IMG/VR virus record: IMGVR_UViG_3300047508_000181
Span: 1 to 20,508 of that record
Length of the DNA stretch: 20,508 nt
Reading direction: 5' to 3' (one strand)
From: a virus
Shown here one piece after another: positions 1,987 through 13,922 of this stretch. The number at the start of each line of letters is the position of its first letter. Within the stretch, counting starts at the first letter, position 1. The notes under the pieces are model-generated. The model saw only the letters and a program-made list of their open reading frames with translations. It ran no database searches and was not told where the DNA came from. The position numbers and the translations under genes were made by a program.

Positions 1987-2304
1987 TTAACGGCGCGGCA
2001 GGGGCAATGCGAGGCGCTTCGCGCGCTCGGCGTTTGTCTTGAGTGTGTGGCATGACCCGCACAACGCTTGGCCGTTCGACATGTCGAGGGCCATACTCGG
2101 GTCGTCCTTAAGCTCGACAATGTGGTCGGCGAAAAGCAGCTTGCCCGTTTGCAGGCATTTGTCGCAGCGCCCGTTAGCCCGGAAGACCACGGCAGCCGCC
2201 CATCGCTTGTGCTCAGGCGTTCGATAGTGCCCGTTGCGGTCGTCCACTTGGCGCACGGTGCGCAGGTCGAGGACACCTCGACGAGGAAGCATCTTAACGG
2301 GCAT
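1987..2304 (-). CDS. HNH endonuclease
   Basis: This is a 105-residue protein with a complete HNH zinc-finger nuclease signature: C47-x2-C50, then D60-H61 in ADHIVEL, N77, and C82-x2-C85-H86 in LCGSCHTLKT. The preceding HYRTPEHKRW segment is typical of small phage HNH proteins. HNH enzymes nick or cut double-stranded DNA. Some stimulate terminase-dependent packaging and others are free-standing homing nucleases. Here the gene follows the tape measure gene, its ATG at 2304 overlapping that gene's 3' end by 11 bases, and not the terminase genes about 14 kb upstream. The position leaves its role open. A second in-frame ATG at 2292 is an alternative start. Longer in-frame extension to 2508 would lie wholly inside the tape measure gene and was rejected. 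Confidence 0.88.
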   Translation of the reverse strand: MPVKMLPRRGVLDLRTVRQVDDRNGHYRTPEHKRWAAAVVFRANGRCDKCLQTGKLLFADHIVELKDDPSMALDMSNGQALCGSCHTLKTNAERAKRLALPLPRR

Positions 2305-5300
2305 GGGAGGGCCTTCGTCCGATTGCGCCAACCTGTTGCATGACAGCGTGCCGGCTGAGTTGCTCAACGGCGCCTTTGCCGCCAGAGAAGCCAGAGAAGG
2401 TTTTGCCATCAAGCACGAAGGACACCGGGTGACCGCTGCCAGAGGCGTCAGCAAGCCCGCCAGAGGCGAACCGCCGCGCCTCGCGGTGATAGCCGCTCGC
2501 GCTCTCAAACGCGCCTACGAGCCCGCCAGTGGAGAATCCTTTGCCGCTGTTCAAGGCGTGCATGAAGGGTACGCCTAGCCTCGACACCGCGGCGGCATTG
2601 ACCACGTACTCGCCGTGCGAAAGTTGCGCCGGTATCGAATCCGATGTGCTAGTCCCGGGCCCGGAAATCAGACCGCCAGCCGCGTGGCCGGCGCCTTCCT
2701 CGCTTGCGTCGCCGCCACCGCCGCGCTCGCTAAGCGCATCGGTGGCCGTTTTGATTGCGGATTCAAATTGACCTAGCGCGGAGGCGGCATCGTTAACCTT
2801 GGGTTTGAATCCTTCAAGAGCCGCAAGTGCGGCTGCCGCCTTCGAGGTGTCGCCTTGAGCGCCAGGCGGGAACGGCCCTCCAGTGGCATCGAAAAAACGA
2901 CTCAGGTCACTCGGAGGGTGAGGACCACCGGTTATATCAAAAGGTCCCCTGCCACCGGGACTCATACGCCAACTAGCCGGCCTTTTGGGGTCCCAGGCCG
3001 GAATTATGGAACCATCCGGCCTTTGATATGAGCCATCCGGCAATTGTTTGATGCCGTGACCGGGTCCTCCCTCAGCATCAAACCAGTAGCTAGTGTCAAT
3101 GGGAGGATGAGGGCCGCCCTTTCTGTCGGGGTGAAATCCAACCCCCTGCCCGCCAACCATTACCCAGCCCGGTCCTCGCGGCGCCGCCGTCTCTGGAACT
3201 CTCTCTGGAACTCTCTCTGGAACTCTCTCTGGAACTCTCTCTGGAACTCTCTCTGGAACTCTCTCTGGAACTCTCTCTAGCGATCTCTCTGGCGGAGCGC
3301 TTTGACGTGACGGGAGCATGTCCAGAACCGGCTCTGCCGATCTCTCAAGGCGCCGTTTCTGCTCGTCGATCTCTCTTTGGTGTTCTGCTCGCCGACGCTG
3401 CTCCGCTCTTGTCTCGGGGAAGGGAGGCTCTAGCCTCGATCTTGTGTGTCCTTCGTATTTTTTTTCTGGATTTTCCTCGCCCTCGCCATCGCCCTTTTTA
3501 CTGCCAAGCGAGTCGAAAAATTTACTGACAGTTCCGCCAATACCGTGAATAAGCCCGTCTTCCAAATGCGTCTGAGTTCGCTGAACTGCGTCAGCATTAG
3601 CGCCCTCCGCCGTAAGCTTCCGCGGGTCCGGGAAATTGTGTTCCCTGTTTTCCTTATCGATTTCGCTGATAGGCGCCCCGAATGCGTCCTTAACCTCGCC
3701 AGCGTGTTCGCTTATGTGCCGCGCGGAACCACCGAAAAGGTCATTGTCAGTTCTAATGATATTTTGGTCAACCCCGTGCGCGGCGATATACCTGCGACGT
3801 TCTTCCAGCACGGCGTCCTCCTGCTCGGAGTCGCCTAGCTTACTGATTTCGCGGAGCCTAGCCTTAGCGCTCTTGTACGCTTCCTCGCCACCCGGGTCGC
3901 CGATGTTGGCGAATCCCGAGAACAGGCGCAGCAAAGCCGGACTATTTACCTCTATCTGACGAGCGAATTCGTTTTTGCCGGCATTGATGCGGTCTTGCAT
4001 CGTGTGTGCGCGGTCGAGAGTCTTGCGCGCCTTATCGGCTTCCTCGCCCTGCTTGCGCTCATCGTCTTCTAATTTTCTGGACGCCTTCTCTTTGCGCTCC
4101 TCACCCTTGCGCGCACCGTCCTTTTGATTCTCAAGGGCCTTTGCAAGTCCATCGACCGATTTTTGAAGGTTATTTTCAGCCTCGACAAGCTCGTGATGCG
4201 ATGAAAGCTCGCGTTGAACCTGAGCCCTTTTCTCGGCAATTTCCGCGCGGCGTTCTGCTTGGTCTTCCTTAGCGCGCTGCTCTTCTTTTGCAATCTTCGC
4301 GTTTTCTTTTTGAAAATCCTTATCCGATATTTGCCCTGACTTATGTCTCTCGTTTAAGTCGCCGTACCGTTCTGCAAAGTCCTCTTTGCTGCGCTTCTCG
4401 TTGCGGTATTCGGTTCTTTCCGAGCGCGCCTCGTCGGTCGCCGAATCTCTTTCGTGCTGGCCAGCTTTTTGGACGTTGTATTGAGCATTCTCAACAGAAT
4501 GCTGCGCATCTACGACTCTTCTAGCGGCGTCAACCTGCTGCTCTGCTGACTCTATTGCCGCGTCCGCCACCTCTCGCTTGGCATCCTTGATAGCCTCTGC
4601 CGAGGATATCGCGGACTCTGCCTGCTCGGTTTCTGCGACGCTAACGGCCTCTGCGGCAGTAGATACACGTTCCTTCATTACCTCCCAGGACTCGACGACC
4701 GAGTCGGCCGCAAGCGAGGCCTCTCGGAAGCCCGAACGGACATTCTTGGCAATGTCGGCCATTGCCTTAAACGGTATCGCCGCGCGGTCCGCCGCAGCCG
4801 CCAACCTCTGCACGTCTTCAGCCGTTGCGCCCGCTGCATATGCAAGGTCGAGTATTTCTGCGCCGGCTTGGCCGGCCTTGTAGGTAAGTACGCCTACGCC
4901 AACAGCAACCGCGGCAACGGCGGTGACAACGCCAACCGCAACGGCCGCAAAACCGGCAAGTGTGCCAATAACCCCCGCAAACCCGCTACCGCCAGCCGCC
5001 GCAGCCTGCCCGGCAGTCGCCGCTGCGGCGCCGACCGATTTGAGTCCAGTCTCGGCCTCGGAACCGCCCGAACGTATGCTGCTGAATACGCCAACCAGCG
5101 CCCTGCCCGCGGTTACCGCATGCTTCGCCACCTCGTCGAAAAGCTTGCCGCCCTCGCCGAAGCTTGAACCAGTCAGGGCGCCAACGCCCGCGCCGATTTT
5201 CTCAAATACGGTCGACGCTGCCTCGCCAAGCTTTTCAAGGCCCTTGCCCATATCGCCCTTATTGAGGGCAGCTTGAAGCTTTCTAGAGGCCTGTTCGCCG

Positions 5301-5374
5301 GCAGGGCCGAGCTTGTTAAGTTCGGCGATAGCCTCGTTAACGCCTTTGATTGATATTTTTTGTTCAAAGGCCAT
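2294..5374 (-). CDS. Tail tape measure protein
   Basis: At 1026 residues this is by far the longest gene. It follows the tail-tube, chaperone and DUF6441-like genes, the usual place for the tape measure protein, which sets tail length and helps DNA entry. A hydrophobic Ala/Gly/Val stretch lies at about residues 131-164 and could span a membrane. Residues about 220-480 are Ala/Glu/Lys/Arg rich and look like long coiled-coil helix. Seven exact copies of Arg-Val-Pro-Glu occupy residues 701-728. A Gly/Pro-rich region after them contains two related GGPHPP segments. The C-terminal part (GGLISGPGTSTSDSIPA, then LSHGEYVVNAAAV, about residues 895-922) resembles a motif common near the end of tape measure proteins of siphoviruses. 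The start directly follows the upstream stop (TAAATG). At roughly 0.15 nm per residue the tail would be near 150 nm, an inference from the family rule. Confidence 0.93.
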   Translation of the reverse strand: MAFEQKISIKGVNEAIAELNKLGPAGEQASRKLQAALNKGDMGKGLEKLGEAASTVFEKIGAGVGALTGSSFGEGGKLFDEVAKHAVTAGRALVGVFSSIRSGGSEAETGLKSVGAAAATAGQAAAAGGSGFAGVIGTLAGFAAVAVGVVTAVAAVAVGVGVLTYKAGQAGAEILDLAYAAGATAEDVQRLAAAADRAAIPFKAMADIAKNVRSGFREASLAADSVVESWEVMKERVSTAAEAVSVAETEQAESAISSAEAIKDAKREVADAAIESAEQQVDAARRVVDAQHSVENAQYNVQKAGQHERDSATDEARSERTEYRNEKRSKEDFAERYGDLNERHKSGQISDKDFQKENAKIAKEEQRAKEDQAERRAEIAEKRAQVQRELSSHHELVEAENNLQKSVDGLAKALENQKDGARKGEERKEKASRKLEDDERKQGEEADKARKTLDRAHTMQDRINAGKNEFARQIEVNSPALLRLFSGFANIGDPGGEEAYKSAKARLREISKLGDSEQEDAVLEERRRYIAAHGVDQNIIRTDNDLFGGSARHISEHAGEVKDAFGAPISEIDKENREHNFPDPRKLTAEGANADAVQRTQTHLEDGLIHGIGGTVSKFFDSLGSKKGDGEGEENPEKKYEGHTRSRLEPPFPETRAEQRRRAEHQREIDEQKRRLERSAEPVLDMLPSRQSAPPERSLERVPERVPERVPERVPERVPERVPERVPETAAPRGPGWVMVGGQGVGFHPDRKGGPHPPIDTSYWFDAEGGPGHGIKQLPDGSYQRPDGSIIPAWDPKRPASWRMSPGGRGPFDITGGPHPPSDLSRFFDATGGPFPPGAQGDTSKAAAALAALEGFKPKVNDAASALGQFESAIKTATDALSERGGGGDASEEGAGHAAGGLISGPGTSTSDSIPAQLSHGEYVVNAAAVSRLGVPFMHALNSGKGFSTGGLVGAFESASGYHREARRFASGGLADASGSGHPVSFVLDGKTFSGFSGGKGAVEQLSRHAVMQQVGAIGRRPSHAR
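3191..3274 (-). repeat. Seven tandem 12-bp repeats coding for Arg-Val-Pro-Glu
   Basis: The plus strand shows the unit GGAACTCTCTCT seven times in exact tandem. In the tape measure frame each copy encodes RVPE. The unit length is a multiple of three, so copy-number change by slippage or recombination would keep the frame and alter the length of a Pro-rich linker between the helical and C-terminal parts of the protein. The copies are identical at DNA level, which suggests recent expansion. Confidence 0.93.
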
Positions 5375-6680: not shown

Positions 6681-7214
6681 TTACCCGATAGGCGTACCAG
6701 TGTAGACGTTGCCCTTACCGATGAAATAATCAACGGTCGAGGGCGGAGTGGTCGGAGCGCCGTTCGCGGTAACGAACTGCACGGTGCCGAAATTCAGACC
6801 GTTTGTGGTGTTCAGAAGGACGTCGCCGGAAATTTCCAACTCGCCCCAATCGTCGCCGATGAAATTAATCGCCTTGTTACAGTTGAGGAACACATTCGGG
6901 AGAATCACAGTTAGGTGAGCCCCGATGTCGTTTGTGCCGACGAGCTTGACCTGCCGCTGGATGACAGACGTCGCGCCGATGTCGATGGTCATCGATGTGG
7001 TGTCGGACGCGTCGAGCGCGCCAAACAACGCCATGATGATGTTATCCGGCACCCACTCGTCGAGCTTCATTTGAAGCTCGTACTCTTGCGCGGTGACGGC
7101 AATCTTATCCATCTTCTTTGTGCCGGTCATCGAAGACCAATGCTTTTTGATTTCCGGCTTAGGTGTGATGATAAACGAAGGGCAGTTGCCCACGTGAACC
7201 CAGGTAGTAGTCAT
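6681..7214 (-). CDS. Major tail tube protein
   Basis: The 177-residue product has the opening expected of siphovirus tube proteins: an N-terminal segment, then a HWSSMTGTKKMDKIAV strand pair and an LQMKLDEWVPDNIIMALFGA segment, in which 'DEW.P.N' is recurrent in this family. Later strands (KLVGTNDIGAHLTVILPNVF and DDWGELEISGDVLLN) fit the beta-sandwich tube fold that polymerises as hexameric rings around the tape measure. An excellent ribosome site, AGGAGA, lies 5 bases before the ATG. The neighbours, a tail terminator upstream and chaperones downstream, agree. A stable hairpin follows, as also happens after the capsid gene, which fits high expression. Confidence 0.88.
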   Translation of the reverse strand: MTTTWVHVGNCPSFIITPKPEIKKHWSSMTGTKKMDKIAVTAQEYELQMKLDEWVPDNIIMALFGALDASDTTSMTIDIGATSVIQRQVKLVGTNDIGAHLTVILPNVFLNCNKAINFIGDDWGELEISGDVLLNTTNGLNFGTVQFVTANGAPTTPPSTVDYFIGKGNVYTGTPIG

Positions 7215-7226
7215 AATTTCTCCTAA

Positions 7227-7712
7227 TTATAGCTCAGTTGATTTGAGCGGATACGTGATTTGAAAATTCAGCGAGACTCTTCCGATTGTCGAGCGACCGG
7301 GAACTATCTCGCTTGCCATTCCCTTGTATAGTACTCGCCCGTTAGTTCCGTAAATTGATGCCAAAGTCGCATCGGTCAAAACCGCCTTCACGAGGCCGAC
7401 CCGAATTGCGCTCAGCTTAGGGCCGAGATTATCCGCCCAAATATTCGTACCGCCAACCTGAACAATATTTCCAGGCGGCGCCATCGCGGTGACCATAATA
7501 TAAGGTACCATATGCACGCGATTAGGAATCTGGCCCGAACGTCCGAGAGACTGGTCCCGTTCGTCAATTTCCTCGTCGCCCTCGAAAACCATTGCGGCAG
7601 GCAGGAGTTTGTCCGGCGGGTCAAAGTAGTTCCTCCCCGCGAGGCTGATTAGAGGCTGCGCTGCGGCTATCGTGACAAGCTGATTAAGTAGCGCCTCGCG
7701 ACGGTCGGTCAT
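7227..7712 (-). CDS. Tail terminator / minor tail protein (gpU-like position)
   Basis: The product is 161 residues: an N-terminal helix (RREALLNQLVTIAA), a strand with AAMVFEGDEEID, a long central strand (VHMVPYIMVTAMAPPGNIV), a helix containing LGPKLSAIRVGLVKAVLTD and a last pair of strands ending QITYPL. This alpha/beta layout and the place between the head-tail joining and tail tube genes fit the tail terminator family, which caps the tube and joins it to the head. The ATG overlaps the upstream stop as ATGA, and GGAGGT lies 8 bases before it. The assignment is from pattern and synteny. Confidence 0.72.
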   Translation of the reverse strand: MTDRREALLNQLVTIAAAQPLISLAGRNYFDPPDKLLPAAMVFEGDEEIDERDQSLGRSGQIPNRVHMVPYIMVTAMAPPGNIVQVGGTNIWADNLGPKLSAIRVGLVKAVLTDATLASIYGTNGRVLYKGMASEIVPGRSTIGRVSLNFQITYPLKSTEL

Positions 7713-8173
7713 AATGTAGCACCTCCGCCAGTCACGTTGGCCGAACCATCGGCCTCGCCGCGCGGTGTCGCGTCGCCAGATACGCTTGCCGAACCGTCGG
7801 ATTGACCGCCAGCCATAACGACCTCGGCGATTGTCAGCATCAGTTCAAGCTCGCCATCGTCCTCACCATTCGGCGAGGGCTTCGGTTCGTAGCTTCGAAT
7901 GCGCCATGACCGGTTGCTAAAAATGACCGATGCCATGTCGAGCGCGGCAATCGTCGCATTGATCGCGGCTAGCCCGCCAGTCAATTCGGGCATACGGACG
8001 CGGCACATCGGGGTTACCGTTTCGACTATCATCCCGTGTCCGAGCTTTTCGGACGACCCTGCCGTGCGGTCGAGGACGAGGACTGAGACGTTTCCGGATG
8101 GTGTCGTTATGAGCGCGTCAACTCCGTGAAACCCGTATATCGGTCCGTATAGGAGTGTTTGGTAATCAATCAT
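7709..8173 (-). CDS. Head-tail joining protein with C-terminal G-E-A-D-G-S repeats
   Basis: The 154-residue product begins MIDYQTLLYGPIYGFHGVDA and carries VLDRTAG, VRMPELTGG and a SWRIRSYEPKPSPNGEDDGE segment. I recognise this arrangement from small head-tail joining proteins of HK97-like prophages, where it precedes the tail terminator gene. The last 32 residues are a separate Gly/Ser/Asp-rich tail with two copies of a motif (GQSDGSASVSG and GEADGSANVTG). Related copies occur in the 138-residue protein at 18739-19155. The start at 8173 overlaps the glycosyltransferase stop as ATGA. The longer frame to 8248 was rejected for that reason. Confidence 0.68.
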   Translation of the reverse strand: MIDYQTLLYGPIYGFHGVDALITTPSGNVSVLVLDRTAGSSEKLGHGMIVETVTPMCRVRMPELTGGLAAINATIAALDMASVIFSNRSWRIRSYEPKPSPNGEDDGELELMLTIAEVVMAGGQSDGSASVSGDATPRGEADGSANVTGGGATL

Positions 8174-9123
8174 GACCCTCTCACTGCGGCCATGGCGAAC
8201 GGCGCTGTGTTCGAGTCCTCGTCGCGCGCAAGCAGGTACCTGTTCCAATCGGACTCAAGCGCGGGCTTGTTGCCTGCGAACTCGATTACTCCGAATGAAT
8301 TTCGCTTTAAATCGGTATGCGGATTGAACCCGTGCTTCACGAACATTTCCCAGCGGCCTTGGTAGGCTCGGTTGGCTTTTGTTCCGTGGAAGGGGTGCTC
8401 AATGGTTGACCATATGTGGCCAAGCTTGCCTCGTGCTGCGGAGAGGGCGCGGGCTTGCCAAGCAAGAATTGCGTCCATGTACTGTGTGCCGACTCGACCA
8501 TCAACAGATTTTTGTCCATATCCCACCATCGCTAGCGCCATGTGATAATCGCCGGAACCCATCCCGCCAAAGTCAATAAGCCCGCCGACCGCGTCAAGAA
8601 ACTCTCTGCGCCACGCCCAGGCATATCCGGGGTGCGGGTAATCGTACGGCCCACCCTCGAATTTCCAGAGCTTGCCGGTATTCACGACTGGGAACCCGGC
8701 AACAAGTTGCCGGCCGAAACTGACATGGTGTTGCAGAATTTCATCGCGCGGACCGAGGTCGAGCGCGTCACTCCACATTTGCACGACAGGCCAGAGGTCT
8801 AGAGCCTTGACCGTCTTATCCATCCACGAGTCGTCGCGCCAAGTCACGTCTGCGTCGATTGTCGCAATCTTGGAAATATCGTGCGGAAGCGAGGCAATGC
8901 CAATATTGAGAAGGTTTTCCTTCGACCACGCGGTCGTCGTGGCTCGGACTCCTATGTGCCTAATTCTAGGCAATCCAGAAAGCTCAAAGGCTCGGTCCCC
9001 GTGTGCACACTCGACGAGGGTAACGGCTGCGCCGTGGCCGACCCAAGATGTGATGGCCTTGGCTGCTAGGTCAATGCGGCTGCGCCAGCCGTGCGGGTTG
9101 GAAACGCAAGTGACGACGTGCAT
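8170..9123 (-). CDS. Glycosyltransferase-like protein 2 (GT-A fold)
   Basis: The 317-residue product begins with a beta strand (MHVVTCVSNPHGW) and continues with AVTLVECAHGD, ENLLNIGIASLP and IATIDADVTWRDDSW. The last segment is a DxD-type metal and nucleotide-sugar binding motif within the core of GT-A glycosyltransferases. A later GGLIDFGGMGSGDYHMALAM segment fits the acceptor-side acidic motif of the same fold. The enzyme would transfer a sugar from a nucleotide donor; the acceptor is not evident. AAGGGGGG lies just before the ATG. It sits between spike-base-like genes and the head-tail joining gene, an unusual place for an enzyme, so a virion protein is one possible substrate. Phage glycosyltransferases may instead modify host surface glycan or DNA. 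Confidence 0.78.
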   Translation of the reverse strand: MHVVTCVSNPHGWRSRIDLAAKAITSWVGHGAAVTLVECAHGDRAFELSGLPRIRHIGVRATTTAWSKENLLNIGIASLPHDISKIATIDADVTWRDDSWMDKTVKALDLWPVVQMWSDALDLGPRDEILQHHVSFGRQLVAGFPVVNTGKLWKFEGGPYDYPHPGYAWAWRREFLDAVGGLIDFGGMGSGDYHMALAMVGYGQKSVDGRVGTQYMDAILAWQARALSAARGKLGHIWSTIEHPFHGTKANRAYQGRWEMFVKHGFNPHTDLKRNSFGVIEFAGNKPALESDWNRYLLARDEDSNTAPFAMAAVRGS

Positions 9124-9135
9124 TAGGGGCCCCCC

Positions 9136-9414
9136 TTAGACTAGCGCTTCGATACCGACAACCGTTGTGTTCGTACTCAGAACGCGCGTCACGCGCACGT
9201 AGCGTGTTTCGCCGGCCGCGAAAGCCAGCGTCCTCGGGTTGGCGCTTCCGCCGCCTCGCGTCCAAACGACCATGTTTCCGGCCGCGTTTGCGCGGAGTCC
9301 CTTAGCCGCGGTCGGAAGGTCGACCGAGTCGGATTTTGTTACCGGATAGGCGTCTTCGGCCGCAGACGAAACCAGAAAATTGACGGCATCGTTCGGGTCG
9401 TTTGCGTTTGCCAT
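9136..9414 (-). CDS. Head spike-base-like protein, paralogue B
   Basis: The product is 92 residues and is a close paralogue of the gene directly upstream. They share NDPND, FLVSS, AED, DLPTAAKGLR, GETR, RV and IEAL in register. The layout (an acidic 'ED..PV..D..DLP' turn, a basic GLR strand, a central beta region, then GETRYVRVTRVLSTNTT and a hydrophobic end) resembles the spike base protein of the Rhodobacter capsulatus gene transfer agent, a small beta protein that anchors head spikes at capsid vertices. That link is from memory of the family. The start overlaps the upstream stop as TAATG. Confidence 0.72.
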   Translation of the reverse strand: MANANDPNDAVNFLVSSAAEDAYPVTKSDSVDLPTAAKGLRANAAGNMVVWTRGGGSANPRTLAFAAGETRYVRVTRVLSTNTTVVGIEALV

Positions 9415-9683
9415 TAAATTAGAGCCTCAATTGTGCCGGCAGTGGTGCCAGTGCTGTAAACTCGGATGACACGGATATGCCGCGTTTCGCCGTTGGCGAA
9501 ATTCAGTAGGCGCGAAGCGTTGCCCCGCGTCTTTACCGTGACGGTTCCGCCTGTGACGACACGCAAGCCCTTTGCCGCGGTCGGCAAATCGTTATTGTCG
9601 TCTGGGCTCACGGGCTGCACGTCCTCGGCCACGGATGAAACGAGGAAGGTAACGCCGTCGTTAGGGTCGTTTACGTTTGACAT
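9414..9683 (-). CDS. Head spike-base-like protein, paralogue A
   Basis: The product is 89 residues, starting MSNVNDPNDGVTFLVSS. Aligned with paralogue B, about 54 of 89 positions match by eye, so the pair arose by tandem duplication. The beta-rich sequence with AEDVQPVSPDDNNDLP, TAAKGLRVV and GETRHIRVIRVYSTGTTAG fits the spike-base family noted for paralogue B. The ATG at 9683 was chosen because the similarity to paralogue B starts exactly there. The frame extends to 9887 but would then overlap the signal-peptide gene. The ribosome site is weak; coupling to the gene ending 3 bases upstream is likely. Confidence 0.74.
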   Translation of the reverse strand: MSNVNDPNDGVTFLVSSVAEDVQPVSPDDNNDLPTAAKGLRVVTGGTVTVKTRGNASRLLNFANGETRHIRVIRVYSTGTTAGTIEALI

Positions 9684-9685
9684 TT

Positions 9686-10018
9686 TCAGGGTGCCACATA
9701 AGAGAAAAAGTAAGTGTACCCGTACCCTGTATTCGTCATCAGGTTTACGGCTGCTGCGGAACCATCGGCCGATGTCGCAAATACTCCAAGGTCCTGAGAA
9801 ACGCGGAAAATTTGCGATTCGTTTGTAGCAAGCTGCGCCGCTAAGGCCACGGCCTCTAGCTGTCCTGCGGGAGTGGCGGGATAGCAAAGATAGGCATCAT
9901 TGCGTAGCATCCACGTATGCGAATAATGGTTGTAAGCGCCGCTTTCGCCGTAGGCGCACCACGCGTTAGCCGCGGTGCTAAAACCGAGCAATGCGAGTGT
10001 TAATGTCAACGTCTTCAT
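9686..10018 (-). CDS. Small secreted protein with signal peptide, unknown function
   Basis: The 110-residue product starts with a clear Sec signal peptide: Lys2, a hydrophobic core (LTLTLALLGF) and an A17-N18-A19 signal peptidase I site before Trp20. The mature part is about 91 residues, begins WCAYGESGAYNHYSH, has two Cys (21 and 45) that could form a disulfide, and ends with aromatic-rich GYGYTYFFSYVAP. No lipobox is present. GAGG lies 5 bases before the ATG. The frame could extend to 10096, but that would enter the tRNA-Thr gene. An exported protein inside a head/tail operon may be a superinfection-exclusion or host-surface factor, or a lysogenic conversion gene. That is inference; I do not recognise the family. 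Confidence 0.75.
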   Translation of the reverse strand: MKTLTLTLALLGFSTAANAWCAYGESGAYNHYSHTWMLRNDAYLCYPATPAGQLEAVALAAQLATNESQIFRVSQDLGVFATSADGSAAAVNLMTNTGYGYTYFFSYVAP

Positions 10019-10035
10019 TTCAACCTCTTCCAAAG

Positions 10036-10111
10036 TGGTGCCGCCTGTAGGAGTCGAACCCACGGCCCTCGCATTACAAAAGCGACGCTCTACCAACTGA
10101 GCTAAAGCGGC
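10036..10111 (-). tRNA. tRNA-Thr (anticodon TGT)
   Basis: The 76 bases fold as a complete cloverleaf including an encoded CCA. The acceptor is GCCGCTT with AGGCGGC. The D arm has GCTC with GAGC. The anticodon loop is TTTGTAA with TGT at 34-36. The T arm is GTGGG-TTCGACT-CCTAC. The discriminator is A, as usual for Thr. One anticodon-stem pair (31-39) is a T-T mismatch. It begins 3 bases after the connector gene stop and ends 17 bases before the secreted-protein ATG, so it is co-transcribed with virion genes. Confidence 0.95.
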
Positions 10112-10114
10112 AAA

Positions 10115-10768
10115 TTAGAATACAGCCGATTGCCACGGTGCGAGTAGCGCCGCGATTTGCGGTGTTGGCCACCCTCCGCGCATAACGTCAGCGTAGGTAA
10201 TGCTCGCAACGTTCGGGATTTCGTGCGCCTTCACATACGGGTCGCGCGAACGGAAAAACCAAAGCTGCTTTACGGTTTCGATAGTGGCGCGTTGCACGTC
10301 GTCGTCAATGTTGCCAACGGCAAACCCGCCCGTGTAGGGAATGACCAATTTTCGGAAATGCCAGCGCAGCGGCATGTCATTCCACAGCCAAACAATGCGG
10401 CCGACCGAGTGGTCGCACTCAAAGTCAACGTTTTCGGTTAACGCTTCCCCGTCACGCGTGAACAGTAAATGGCCATTGCCGTCCTGAGCGAACGAGACGA
10501 CAGGCGTACGCCTAAGCCAAATATAATCAGGTAGACTATTGAGAGATGCGCTGTCCACAAAAGGATACGGCCGAAATGTCTCAGTGACGGTTTCCGCAAC
10601 GAATTCCCTCCTGCAATACTTGGCGACGAACTTGGATGCCTGCGTAACCATGGTCGCCAGCACGGCGTCATTGGTCGTGTTGGCCATCCCGAGGTCGGCT
10701 TTTACAGCCGCGACCGTCGTTAGGTCTTTAGATATGGCGGGCGTGGTGACGGTCAAAAAGCGATACAT
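10115..10768 (-). CDS. Head-tail connector protein, gp6-like
   Basis: The 217-residue product has an N-terminal helical domain with SKDLTTVAAVKADLGMANTT and LATMVTQASKFVAKYCRREF, the recognisable opening of the HK97 gp6-like connector family: 'd...vk..L....d..d..l...i..As.fv..yc.r.f'. A beta middle region (YIWLRRTPVVSF) and C-terminal helices (VQRATIETVKQLWFF) follow. Family members form a dodecameric ring under the portal that completes the head. The gene starts directly after the 68-residue gene (TAAATG) and ends 3 bases before tRNA-Thr. Length and order agree with the family. Confidence 0.85.
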   Translation of the reverse strand: MYRFLTVTTPAISKDLTTVAAVKADLGMANTTNDAVLATMVTQASKFVAKYCRREFVAETVTETFRPYPFVDSASLNSLPDYIWLRRTPVVSFAQDGNGHLLFTRDGEALTENVDFECDHSVGRIVWLWNDMPLRWHFRKLVIPYTGGFAVGNIDDDVQRATIETVKQLWFFRSRDPYVKAHEIPNVASITYADVMRGGWPTPQIAALLAPWQSAVF

Positions 10769-10975
10769 TTATGAACGCTTCGCCTTAGCGGGCGTCTTCT
10801 GGGCCACCTCATCCTCGGCCACCTCGACCACGGGCTCGACGGTGACCGCGCTGCCCTCGTGCACGAAGTGTCCCATGTCCTGCTCCATTTTATGCACGGA
10901 GTCGGCGAGGAACTGAACGAGTTCTTTTCGATTGCCGCGGAGTAGCTGGCGCGTCTCACGAAATTTTATGAACAT
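10769..10975 (-). CDS. Small hypothetical protein, 68 aa
   Basis: The product is charged. An N-terminal helix is predicted from FRETRQLLRGNRKELVQFLA and DSVHKMEQDM. An acidic stretch (VEPVVEVAEDEVAQ) precedes a basic end, KTPAKAKRS. AAGGT lies 7 bases before the ATG, and the start overlaps the glycosyltransferase 3' end by 20 bases. The stop abuts the connector start, so coupling is likely. I do not recognise it; it might be a small head or assembly factor. Confidence 0.65.
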   Translation of the reverse strand: MFIKFRETRQLLRGNRKELVQFLADSVHKMEQDMGHFVHEGSAVTVEPVVEVAEDEVAQKTPAKAKRS

Positions 10976-11612
10976 CCGATAACCTTCCCTTGAATTCAGA
11001 TTCGCCTACGTGTGACAGTTCGATATCCGGGCAAACCCAAACATCCCCACCAAGCGCGCGATACCTGCTGCAAAAATCGTAGTCCTCGCCCTCGTCGTCC
11101 GGAGTGCGAAAAATGTGAAAGTACGGGATTAACCGCTGATGCTCTGCGTTTCGTCGGACAACGCCCATACGCCCGCAATCGGGGTCGGCCGCAACCATCC
11201 GCTTTATGGCCGTTCGGCTTATCTTCATGAAAGCCGCGCCAACCTTTTTAACCTCGACGTTTGCGCCCTCGGTGCGCCCGCCTTTGAGCGGTACATAGCA
11301 GTAGGAGGCATCTTGACATCGACGGCGCCCTACGCCTGCGATAACGTCCTTGTCGGACTCGGCGAGGCGCATAAAGCCCTCGACGTTCCAACCCATGTCG
11401 TCGTCAATGAAGACTAGAGAGTCTTTTTTGGACGCTAGGAATAGAGCAACTAATTGATTTCGCGCTTTTGCGGCAATCGCGCAGCCGACCACAAACTCAT
11501 GGGAAAATTCAACACCGCGCCGTTGCAGTTCCAACGCGGTGTTGAGTAGGGAGCGCGTATACTGCCACGCTGGTTTTCTGGCAACCGGAGTGGCAATAAA
11601 CACGCTATTCAT
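10956..11612 (-). CDS. Glycosyltransferase-like protein 1 (GT-A fold)
   Basis: The 218-residue product has strand-rich MNSVFIATPVARKP at the start, an AKARNQLVALFLAS helix, then SLVFIDDDMGWNVEGFMRL. The last segment is a DDD variant of the DxD motif that binds metal and nucleotide sugar in GT-A enzymes. DVIAGVGRRR and VGAAFMKISRTAIKRM follow, and DDEGEDYDFCSRYRALGGDV matches the 'GED..FC' acceptor-side element of GT2-type enzymes. The end, DIELSHVGESEFKG, is also typical of phage members. The TAATG overlap ties it to the putative decoration protein gene. The sugar and acceptor are unknown. This is a different enzyme from that at 8170-9123. Confidence 0.82.
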   Translation of the reverse strand: MNSVFIATPVARKPAWQYTRSLLNTALELQRRGVEFSHEFVVGCAIAAKARNQLVALFLASKKDSLVFIDDDMGWNVEGFMRLAESDKDVIAGVGRRRCQDASYCYVPLKGGRTEGANVEVKKVGAAFMKISRTAIKRMVAADPDCGRMGVVRRNAEHQRLIPYFHIFRTPDDEGEDYDFCSRYRALGGDVWVCPDIELSHVGESEFKGRLSDVHKIS

Positions 11613-12115
11613 TAGTTAGCCGAGGAGTCAACAGCCGCCGGCACGACTTTGCCGTACTTGGCCGACCAAAGGATAATCTCGACGTTCAGAGTCGTCGCAA
11701 CCGCGTTCCCGGTGCCGACGCGCAAGCAGTCGAAGCCGCCATTGATGTCGAGCATTTCGGGGGTCACCTCAATGACGTATTGCATCTCTTTCGAGTTTAC
11801 AGCGCCAGTCGTGAAGGTGTTGTTAGAAACCGCAGTGTTGACGAGGACGTTAGACGCTCCGACGTCGAGGTTCGCATACATGGCGGTGAAGGCAACGGCC
11901 TTTTCGTCAGTGTTTGCGTTAGCGATGTCGGTCGTCTGCTTCAGGGTAATGGCCGAGCCGGTAACAGTCGTCGCGTTCAGAGCGCTGATAACGACAGTCG
12001 CGCGGTGATAGCCCTTCATCGAAACGCGACGGGGTGTCGTGCTCGAAGGTGTCGTATTCGACAGTGTTTGAGCAATAACGGCCTGCTCAACAAACTGTGC
12101 ATTTTCGGTAATCAT
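11612..12115 (-). CDS. Putative capsid decoration or other virion surface protein, 167 aa
   Basis: The product is Thr, Val, Ala and Asn rich and looks all-beta (for example KGYHRATVVISALNATTV, then MQYVIEVTPEMLDINGGFDC). It lies immediately downstream of the major capsid gene, the common place for decoration proteins, and I have a general memory of similar small proteins after capsid genes in alphaproteobacterial prophages. No enzymatic motif is visible. AGGAG lies 11 bases upstream of the ATG. Between it and the capsid stop is a strong hairpin. A minor head or head-fiber role is equally possible. Confidence 0.6.
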   Translation of the reverse strand: MITENAQFVEQAVIAQTLSNTTPSSTTPRRVSMKGYHRATVVISALNATTVTGSAITLKQTTDIANANTDEKAVAFTAMYANLDVGASNVLVNTAVSNNTFTTGAVNSKEMQYVIEVTPEMLDINGGFDCLRVGTGNAVATTLNVEIILWSAKYGKVVPAAVDSSAN

Positions 12116-12176: not shown

Positions 12177-13595
12177 TTAGGACGTGCGTGCGTCGAGCGT
12201 CACGTAATGCGAAAGCGTCTTAGCATTCGTATCGCGCGGGCTGATGACCTGATTCCACCACGGCTGACCGGCAACCCGCAGGATAAAGCGGAACGCGACT
12301 TGGTCATAGTCGAACCAAAGATGGATAGATGTCTCGGCGCGCAATCCGCCAACCTTCTGAGCCGCAAGATAGGCCTTAAGGTCGGTCAGAATCACGTCGC
12401 CCTGATACCCGAGGGCATTACAAGCCTGGGTCACGATGACCGGCTTGCCGTACAGAGTCGCGTAGGGAGCGCCAGAGACGCCACCGGGCGGCATGTAAAC
12501 CGGGAACTGCAGAGTCGTCGCGCCATTGGACGGGAAGCCCATGGCATTTAACTGTTGCTCAACATCCTGGTTGATTAACCACACCGCATTTGCACGCGCC
12601 GGAGCATAAAGCCGGCTGTACATCTTCGACACGTTCGCGAAATTGACCGTGAATGTCGTCTGTGCGCTTTCCTTGGCGACGCTGACGAGCGCAGGGCTCT
12701 TCAGAATGCCGAGGGGCTGGCCGACGCCGCTGCCCTGAACAATCGCGTTCGAAACCTTGAAGTCGATTTTCTCGGGAGCCTTGCGATTGATGTACGAACC
12801 AAGCGCCGCGGAATCTTCCAGAAGCTCGGAGGTGACAGGCACAAGAGCCGCCAGCTTGTTCAAGCGGATTGTGGTGTCTTGCAGGCTGGGCTTTGTCTGA
12901 GAAATCTGTGCGCCTTCACCTTCCCAGTACGCGAGAATGCCGCCGGAGCTCTGCCACGGGGTTGTCTCGTCGGTCGGGATTGTCAGGGAGTTTCCAGCAA
13001 CGTCGATGAGGTCGGTACGGGCCAGCAAGCTGGTCTCGCCCATAACCTTTTCCATAATCATCGTCCTGAATTCTGGGGGTACCGCAAAACCACCATCGGC
13101 GCCAACGCCTTCCGAACCGTATGTGGTCGGCGCGTCGAGGACGAGTCGGGGGTCAACATGCGAGTGGCCGCCGGGAAGGCCGGCCGAATACACGGACGCT
13201 GCGAAATGACCGAGAGTCGGGAAGCCGCGGCGACGCGTGTCGCTCAGGTCGATGGGTTGAGCGAAAGGCTTGCGGGCCGCAGGAACGGCCGCCTTTGCAG
13301 TCGCAACAGCCGCCGCAACCGGGTCGGATGTGTCAGCCGCAACAGTCGCCTCGGTCTGCCGGCCGGAACCGACATGCAGGCTCGCCATATTCGCCTGAAT
13401 CATTTCGCGTCGGCTAATCTGGGCCTTTGTGGCATCGATGTCTGCGAAAATGGTGTCCAGGTCAGAAGCCTCTTCGGCGCTAAACCCACGCTTTGCAGCG
13501 TCGGCCGCAGCCTGAATCGTCACAGCCCGCTCGTTCAGCGTGACTAAAGTGTCACGCAGAAGCTGAAGGGGGTTGCCTTCGTTAAACATTCTCAT
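12177..13595 (-). CDS. Major capsid protein, HK97 type
   Basis: The product is 472 residues. Residues about 1-110 form a helical, Ala-rich scaffolding (delta) domain, with LQLLRDTLVTLNERAVTIQA and FSAEEASDLDTIFADIDATK. The capsid core follows: YGSEGVGADGGFAVPPEF at the N-arm, then LIDVAGNSLTIPTDETTPW, a LAALVPVTSELLEDSAALGS spine-helix region and QGSGVGQPLGIL near residues 287-297, all hallmarks of HK97-fold capsids. The delta domain is expected to be removed by the ClpP-like protease two protein genes upstream. The ATG at 13595 has AGAGG about 10 bases before it. A longer frame to 13880 would run back through the 53-residue gene and into tRNA-Asn, so it was not used. Confidence 0.95.
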   Translation of the reverse strand: MRMFNEGNPLQLLRDTLVTLNERAVTIQAAADAAKRGFSAEEASDLDTIFADIDATKAQISRREMIQANMASLHVGSGRQTEATVAADTSDPVAAAVATAKAAVPAARKPFAQPIDLSDTRRRGFPTLGHFAASVYSAGLPGGHSHVDPRLVLDAPTTYGSEGVGADGGFAVPPEFRTMIMEKVMGETSLLARTDLIDVAGNSLTIPTDETTPWQSSGGILAYWEGEGAQISQTKPSLQDTTIRLNKLAALVPVTSELLEDSAALGSYINRKAPEKIDFKVSNAIVQGSGVGQPLGILKSPALVSVAKESAQTTFTVNFANVSKMYSRLYAPARANAVWLINQDVEQQLNAMGFPSNGATTLQFPVYMPPGGVSGAPYATLYGKPVIVTQACNALGYQGDVILTDLKAYLAAQKVGGLRAETSIHLWFDYDQVAFRFILRVAGQPWWNQVISPRDTNAKTLSHYVTLDARTS

Positions 13596-13846: not shown

Positions 13847-13922
13847 TGGCTCCCCAGGCTGGACTCGAACCAGCAACCACGCGGTTAACAGCCGAGTGCT
13901 CTACCGATTGAGCTACCGGGGA
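13847..13922 (-). tRNA. tRNA-Asn (anticodon GTT)
   Basis: The 76 bases form a full cloverleaf with encoded CCA. The acceptor is TCCCCGG with CTGGGGA (one G-T pair). The D arm has GCTC with GAGC. The anticodon loop is CTGTTAA with GTT at 34-36. The T arm is GCTGG-TTCGAGT-CCAGC. The discriminator is G, as in bacterial tRNA-Asn. One anticodon-stem position (28-42) is a T-C mismatch. It starts 1 base after the protease stop codon and its 3' half supplies a ribosome site for the next gene. Confidence 0.95.
13850..13855 (-). promoter_or_regulatory. Ribosome binding site embedded in tRNA-Asn acceptor stem
   Basis: GGGGAG, made of tRNA positions 68-73, lies 6 bases before the ATG of the 53-residue basic gene. 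If the tRNA is folded or processed out of the transcript, this site is lost, so translation and tRNA maturation would be mutually exclusive. Confidence 0.4.

Follow-up and report, generated by a model that had tools for sequence, protein, structure and literature searches.

Known viral glycosylation systems and the GtA/GtB locus

According to the literature examined, virion glycosylation by the own enzymes of tailed phages has so far been established for a few mycobacteriophages (PMC12363180 and PMC11256854). In PMC12363180, proteins of Che8, Corndog and Myrna are reported to be glycosylated, and the capsid and tail tube of mycobacteriophages are described as carrying glycans (from Freeman et al., 2023). 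The structural operon of Corndog contains the genes for an O-methyltransferase, two glycosyltransferases (GTs) and a putative N-acetylglucosaminyltransferase (PMC4351075). In Sulfolobus turreted icosahedral virus (STIV), the capsid protein is glycosylated and the protein A197 is essential; the action of A197 on the capsid protein is proposed, not proven (PMC10551542). A role in capsid glycans was shown for A064R of Paramecium bursaria chlorella virus 1 (PBCV-1) (PMC9614988). In this study, GtA and GtB, two predicted GTs encoded by the IMG/VR virus record IMGVR_UViG_3300047508_000181, were analyzed. The whole stretch of 20,508 nucleotides (20.5 kb), hereafter the window, is the entire viral record and probably a genome fragment, and comparison with a phage collection gave no near match. 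It carries the late operon of an HK97-type siphovirus on its minus strand. Sugar-coating of virions is known in kind from mycobacteriophages, and GtA and GtB are a different, unannotated set. Both are soluble, probably metal-dependent GT-A enzymes, which in our assessment probably put sugars on the capsid surface (GtB) and on a spike-base or tail/tail-completion protein (GtA).

The initial annotation of the window had placed two GT genes in its structural block. Both open reading frames (ORFs) are present on the minus strand in the head-to-tail operon:

8170..9123, minus strand: GtA, predicted soluble GT-A glycosyltransferase, 317 amino acid residues, DAD motif D90-D92 (IDADV)
10956..11612, minus strand: GtB, predicted soluble GT-A glycosyltransferase, 218 amino acid residues, metal motif D70-D72 (IDDDM), base E176-D177, and H201

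Similar to GtB, A197 of STIV (PDB 2C0N) is a small stand-alone viral GT-A domain, and it is the best structural match of GtB as well as a match at the sequence-profile level. However, STIV is an archaeal, non-tailed virus with another capsid fold, the identity between the two proteins is about 18%, and A197 is essential in STIV whereas GtB is sporadic in the phages of this study. Mycobacteriophages Che8 (gp108-110) and Corndog (gp35-38) encode their own GTs together with a methyltransferase, those of Corndog being in the structural operon like the GTs of the window. Different from the window, Che8 and Corndog have hosts of a different phylum and use a different slot. No significant similarity was found between GtA/GtB and gp108-110 of Che8 (best hmmsearch E of 0.006 and 3.4 bits in a three-sequence search; hhalign probability <1%). 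The GT-GT-methyltransferase layout of PBCV-1 A064R resembles the GtB relatives that are fused to GT or methyltransferase domains, and its first GT domain (D1) was among the Foldseek matches of GtB as a weak one (rank 50). PBCV-1, however, is a giant virus of eukaryotic algae, and the window enzymes are single-domain proteins. A197 and A064R can be regarded as functional parallels from other realms of viruses.

Predicted fold and conservation of GtA and GtB

The AlphaFold2 models of GtA and GtB had predicted local distance difference test (pLDDT) values of 91.1 and 90.4 and predicted template modeling (pTM) scores of 0.90 and 0.89, respectively, and the top PDB matches of both models were GT-A enzymes (Z 13–19). 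The best structural matches of GtA were GT2-like GT-A enzymes (Z 13–15). For GtB, the nearest solved structure was A197 (Z 18.7, 162 residues aligned, 2.3 Å), to which it also had a profile match (E 1.7e-5), followed by entries of the lysyl-hydroxylase LH3 with Z values of 16.9 and below. Residues D90 and D92 of GtA were invariant across 52 homologs, and D70, D72, E176, D177 and H201 of GtB were invariant in an alignment of 47 homologs. Thus, the DAD and DDD motifs pointed out in the initial annotation are not chance occurrences, and its assignment of both proteins to the GT-A glycosyltransferases is confirmed at the level of predicted fold and conserved residues.

Neither enzyme reached a Pfam family. 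GtA also had no PHROG or NCBIfam match, and GtB belonged to phrog_1574, a family with no annotated function (E 7.7e-20). Matches to Glycos_transf_2 (PF00535) were weak and were found for 12 of the 52 GtA and 3 of the 47 GtB family members, with a best E of 4.5e-4. Hydropathy analysis revealed no membrane or hydrophobic segments in either protein.

The ratios of nonsynonymous to synonymous substitution rates (dN/dS) against the closest relative were 0.059 for GtA and 0.175 for GtB, and both genes are therefore under purifying selection. Moreover, the start codon of GtB overlaps the stop codon of the preceding gene for a protein of 167 amino acid residues (TAATG) and the stop codon of GtA overlaps the start codon of the next gene (ATGA), showing that both are built into the operon. 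The accessory distribution described below would fit non-functional passengers, but with catalytic residues invariant, dN/dS values as low as 0.06 and 0.18 and both genes maintained in a near relative, the probability of such passengers is close to negligible.

GtB occupies a conserved slot behind the capsid gene

GtB homologs were collected by sequence alone, which yielded 80 viral loci and eight loci from bacterial genomes; the latter came from an alignment query, and a single-protein query of genome contigs gave none. Eleven loci of the closest GtB clade were examined (L005, L089-L093, L096, L101 and L188-L190). In all eleven, the capsid gene was followed by a gene for a protein of about 160 amino acid residues and then by GtB. 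A connector gene was found behind GtB in ten of them, the contig of L101 stopping inside GtB, and a spike-base gene was behind GtB in three (L090, L092 and L093). The identities between GtB of this clade and that of the window were 41–47%, the near-copy of the window excepted, and the capsids of five of the loci were 21–25% identical to the window capsid. L188-L190 are contigs of metagenome-assembled genomes (MAGs) named Rhodopila, Ancalomicrobiaceae and Rhizobiales, and the hosts are therefore probably Alphaproteobacteria. In the window, GtB is accompanied by the following features:

12177..13595, minus strand: major capsid protein, HK97 type, 472 amino acid residues (PF05065 E 1.1e-47, phrog_10 E 5e-48), alternative GtB acceptor
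11612..12115, minus strand: putative capsid decoration protein directly after the capsid gene, 167 amino acid residues, beta-rich, serine plus threonine 21%, candidate GtB acceptor
10769..10975, minus strand: protein of 68 amino acid residues, overlapping the end of GtB
10115..10768, minus strand: head-tail connector (phrog_442 head-tail adaptor, E 1e-14), closing the GtB slot

The putative decoration protein had a weak match to phrog_28483, a family of unknown function (E 3.6e-5). A homolog of the 68-residue protein was found only in the closest relative, and several relatives had a similarly short gene behind GtB.

The slot of L101 contained, in addition to GtB, genes for an NDP-sugar epimerase (PF01370, E 3.8e-55) and a methyltransferase (E 1.1e-12), as well as a GT-like domain fused before GtB. 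A related extra domain was fused in front of GtB in L188, L190, L097 and L098, a GT2 domain was fused behind GtB in L095 (PF00535, E 1.5e-16) and a weakly matching methyltransferase domain was fused behind it in L156. In one P22-like phage record, a methyltransferase gene was located directly before the GT gene, and L189 and L190 carried a second GT-like gene, of other families, between the connector and the major tail protein. In the wider family, GtB homologs were located behind T4 gp23-type capsid genes in 21 loci, behind P22-type coat genes in 5 and behind another capsid type in 6; these counts are not independent events, as the members within each group are mutually related. In the tree of 78 GtB homologs, several deep branches were long and unsure. 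Given that GtB keeps its place after the capsid gene in close relatives and recurs behind unrelated capsids, and that the slot of L101 holds a glycan cassette of epimerase, methyltransferase and two GT domains, modification of virion proteins, as the initial annotation had suggested, is the best reading of this locus.

That annotation also proposed that the two enzymes act stepwise on one glycan. This is not supported, as the two families are distributed differently and, among the loci examined, the window and its near-copy were the only ones with both GtA and GtB. In the window, the two genes are non-adjacent and are separated by about 1.8 kb that contains the 68-residue gene, the connector gene, a tRNA-Thr gene, the gene for a protein of 110 amino acid residues with a signal-peptide-like start and two spike-base genes. 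The fusions of GT with GT or methyltransferase domains suggest stepwise sugar chemistry for the relatives that have them, not for the GtA/GtB pair.

In one phage without GtB, proteins resembling MptE/DUF115 by eye were encoded behind the capsid gene (L218:7750-9489), and the post-capsid slot may be open to several enzyme types.

GtA follows two spike-base genes

GtA of the window is directly behind two genes for paralogous spike-base proteins of the type found in the Rhodobacter capsulatus gene transfer agent (RcGTA), and it is followed by a gene of the tail-completion region:

9414..9683, minus strand: head-spike base paralog 1 (NF048002 spike_base, 65.8 bits, cut-off 28)
9136..9414, minus strand: head-spike base paralog 2 (NF048002, 50.7 bits, cut-off 28), directly upstream of GtA, candidate GtA acceptor
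7709..8173, minus strand: tail-completion-region protein, 154 amino acid residues, 4-nt overlap with GtA, co-translated, possible acceptor

NF048002 is the NCBIfam family "spike base protein, RCAP_Rcc01079 family". Thus, of the two neighbors named in the initial annotation, the spike-base-like genes were borne out by two NCBIfam matches above cut-off, while the decoration gene at 11612-12115 is putative only. Family searches gave no convincing match for the 154-residue protein. The tandem duplication of the RcGTA-type spike base (9136-9683) consists of copies that are 62% identical, with no fibre gene directly behind them.

The head-spike base of RcGTA carries a capsule-binding fibre (PMC7296036). 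The spike-base family is common to the head spikes of RcGTA (Rcc01079 base, Rcc01080 fibre) and the two genes before GtA. Different from RcGTA, in which the base carries the fibre, the base genes of the window are followed by a GT gene. In L210, a fibre-like protein of 590 amino acid residues is encoded behind the spike base (L210:8138-9907), and GtA therefore occupies the place of the fibre-like gene of that relative. By eye, the start of the L210 protein (MLGPALDLSLR) resembles the hydrophobic peg of the RcGTA head fibre (PMC7296036) and its end looks like an SGNH esterase. Spike bases and GTs were not generally linked: 10 of the 12 spike-base loci scanned had neither GtA nor GtB nearby; the remaining two are near relatives of the window.

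Proposed role of GtA and GtB

We infer the activity, donor, acceptors and benefit of the two enzymes as follows. GtA and GtB would be made late, alongside the structural proteins, and would use host nucleotide-sugars as their sugar source. GtB may modify the translationally coupled 167-residue putative decoration protein, or the capsid protein, as it is made; GtA may modify a spike base or a tail/tail-completion protein. The resulting sugar coat could alter adsorption or shield the particle. The substrate of GtB is most likely the capsid surface, and the assignment of a spike base, tail or tail-completion protein to GtA is uncertain. By analogy with mycobacteriophages, the major tail protein is also a possible acceptor. 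Evasion of animal defences, which was raised in the initial annotation, finds little favor here: related elements are in alphaproteobacterial MAG contigs, and animal immunity is no natural first guess.

More tentatively, phrog_1574-like GtB may represent an uncharacterized, modular type of "capsid glycan cassette" found outside mycobacteriophages, with a preferred post-capsid slot in several unrelated tailed-phage lineages and with an optional epimerase, methyltransferase or second GT; in the window, GtA might take the place of a fibre-like gene, the spike bases then bearing sugars rather than a fibre. Should the GtB slot be a marker of capsid glycosylation, a large phage protein family of "unknown function" would become interpretable and testable, and one would expect glycosylated particles in alphaproteobacterial phages as well as in T4-like and P22-like phages. 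Such glycosylation would be relevant to adsorption, to particle stability and to how the particle is shielded from surface factors of the host.

Observations at odds with virion glycosylation and alternative targets

Several results weigh against the proposed modification of virion proteins. To begin with, the link between the enzymes and the virion proteins is only positional. Profile-profile comparison detected no homology between the decoration protein of the window and the proteins of about 160 amino acid residues in the same slot of the relatives, and a conserved GtB acceptor is therefore not supported. When the search was started from the capsid, a GtB-like gene was present in no more than 2 of the 80 closest relatives by capsid, namely the near-copy of the window and one weak match, so that the modification is dispensable. 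In addition, the neighbors of GtA relatives, scanned for 80 of 222 homologs, were mixed and included terminase, portal, baseplate, tail fibre, ParB-like and endolysin genes. Finally, 16 GtB loci of a T4-like clade adjoin clamp, clamp-loader and recombination genes, the cultured phages phiM12, Cr30, DLP6 and RHph_I1_18 carry a GtB homolog beside T4-like replication genes, and further GtB homologs are located in recombination or tail modules. Thus, the position of GtB is strong evidence in the clade of the window and weaker evidence family-wide. In the sister phages L209 and L210, the same decoration-type gene is present but GtB is missing; GtB is therefore an accessory insertion that lands in a fixed place.

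GTs that modify host glycans are common in phages, and GtA and GtB could be chance-inserted moron genes whose products modify a host surface polysaccharide, such as lipopolysaccharide or capsule, for superinfection exclusion or seroconversion. The rarity of GtB among the closest capsid relatives fits such an accessory gene, and the scattered contexts of the GtA family and the protein with a signal-peptide-like start in the same operon (9686-10018) point the same way. However, GtA and GtB lack hydrophobic segments, the post-capsid slot of GtB is kept across close and wider relatives, both genes overlap adjoining genes of the structural operon, and no gtrA/gtrB-like gene was recognized among the scanned ORFs, for which no dedicated search was made. 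We consider modification of the host surface unlikely.

It could also be that GtB alone acts on the virion and GtA on other targets, such as host glycans or lysis-related polymers. While the GtB slot is fixed on the capsid side, neither neighbor scans nor clustering revealed a constant partner of GtA, whose homologs are found next to endolysin and ParB genes among others. GtA is, however, flanked by spike-base and tail-completion genes and overlaps its neighbor on one side, and a second GT-like gene between the connector and the major tail protein is also found in L189 and L190. Such a division of roles is distinctly doubtful.

The clade of GtB homologs that adjoins clamp, helicase and recombination genes raises the question of whether GtA and GtB glycosylate phage DNA against restriction, given that phage DNA is a substrate of the TAGT family of GT-A enzymes (PMC13216743). 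DNA as the target, named in the initial annotation as an outcome that would refute its proposal, is disfavored here. Both genes are late, and the records of three GtB-carrying relatives, which are possibly incomplete, contained neither TAGT (PF20691) nor a member of the thymidylate synthase/hydroxymethylase family. None of 99 family members matched PF20691 at E 0.01, a single weak match being found in a wider homolog (E 0.018), and the early region of a near relative has DNA methyltransferase-like ORFs (by eye) instead. Glycosylation of DNA by these enzymes is thus highly improbable, and modification of virion proteins is retained as the preferred reading.

Other features of the late operon

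The late operon of the window starts with terminase (TerL), portal, ClpP-type protease, capsid, the 167-residue protein, GtB and the 68-residue protein, continues with the head-tail connector, tRNA-Thr, the 110-residue protein, the two spike-base paralogs and GtA, and ends with two small tail-completion-region proteins, the major tail protein and the tape measure. Promoter and terminator scans gave nothing above chance. The major tail protein is encoded as follows:

6681..7214, minus strand: major tail protein with Ig-like domain (phrog_807, E 1.1e-17)

Two tRNA genes, tRNA-Thr (10036-10111) and tRNA-Asn (13847-13922), sit within the structural operon. The position of tRNA-Thr is kept in a near relative (L002 7023-7098), in which tRNA-Asn was not found, and a tRNA-Met gene is upstream of the capsid gene in L189. 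Directly after tRNA-Thr, the gene at 9686-10018 encodes the 110-residue protein with a signal-peptide-like start. It was the fastest-evolving among the genes compared (71% identity, dN/dS 0.24) and is perhaps a moron. In the tape-measure protein (within 2294-5374), PERV units are repeated in a short tandem array, VPERVPERVPERV. An HNH endonuclease gene (PF01844) is located at 1987-2300, at the end of the gene for the tape measure, and is present in the near relative as well.

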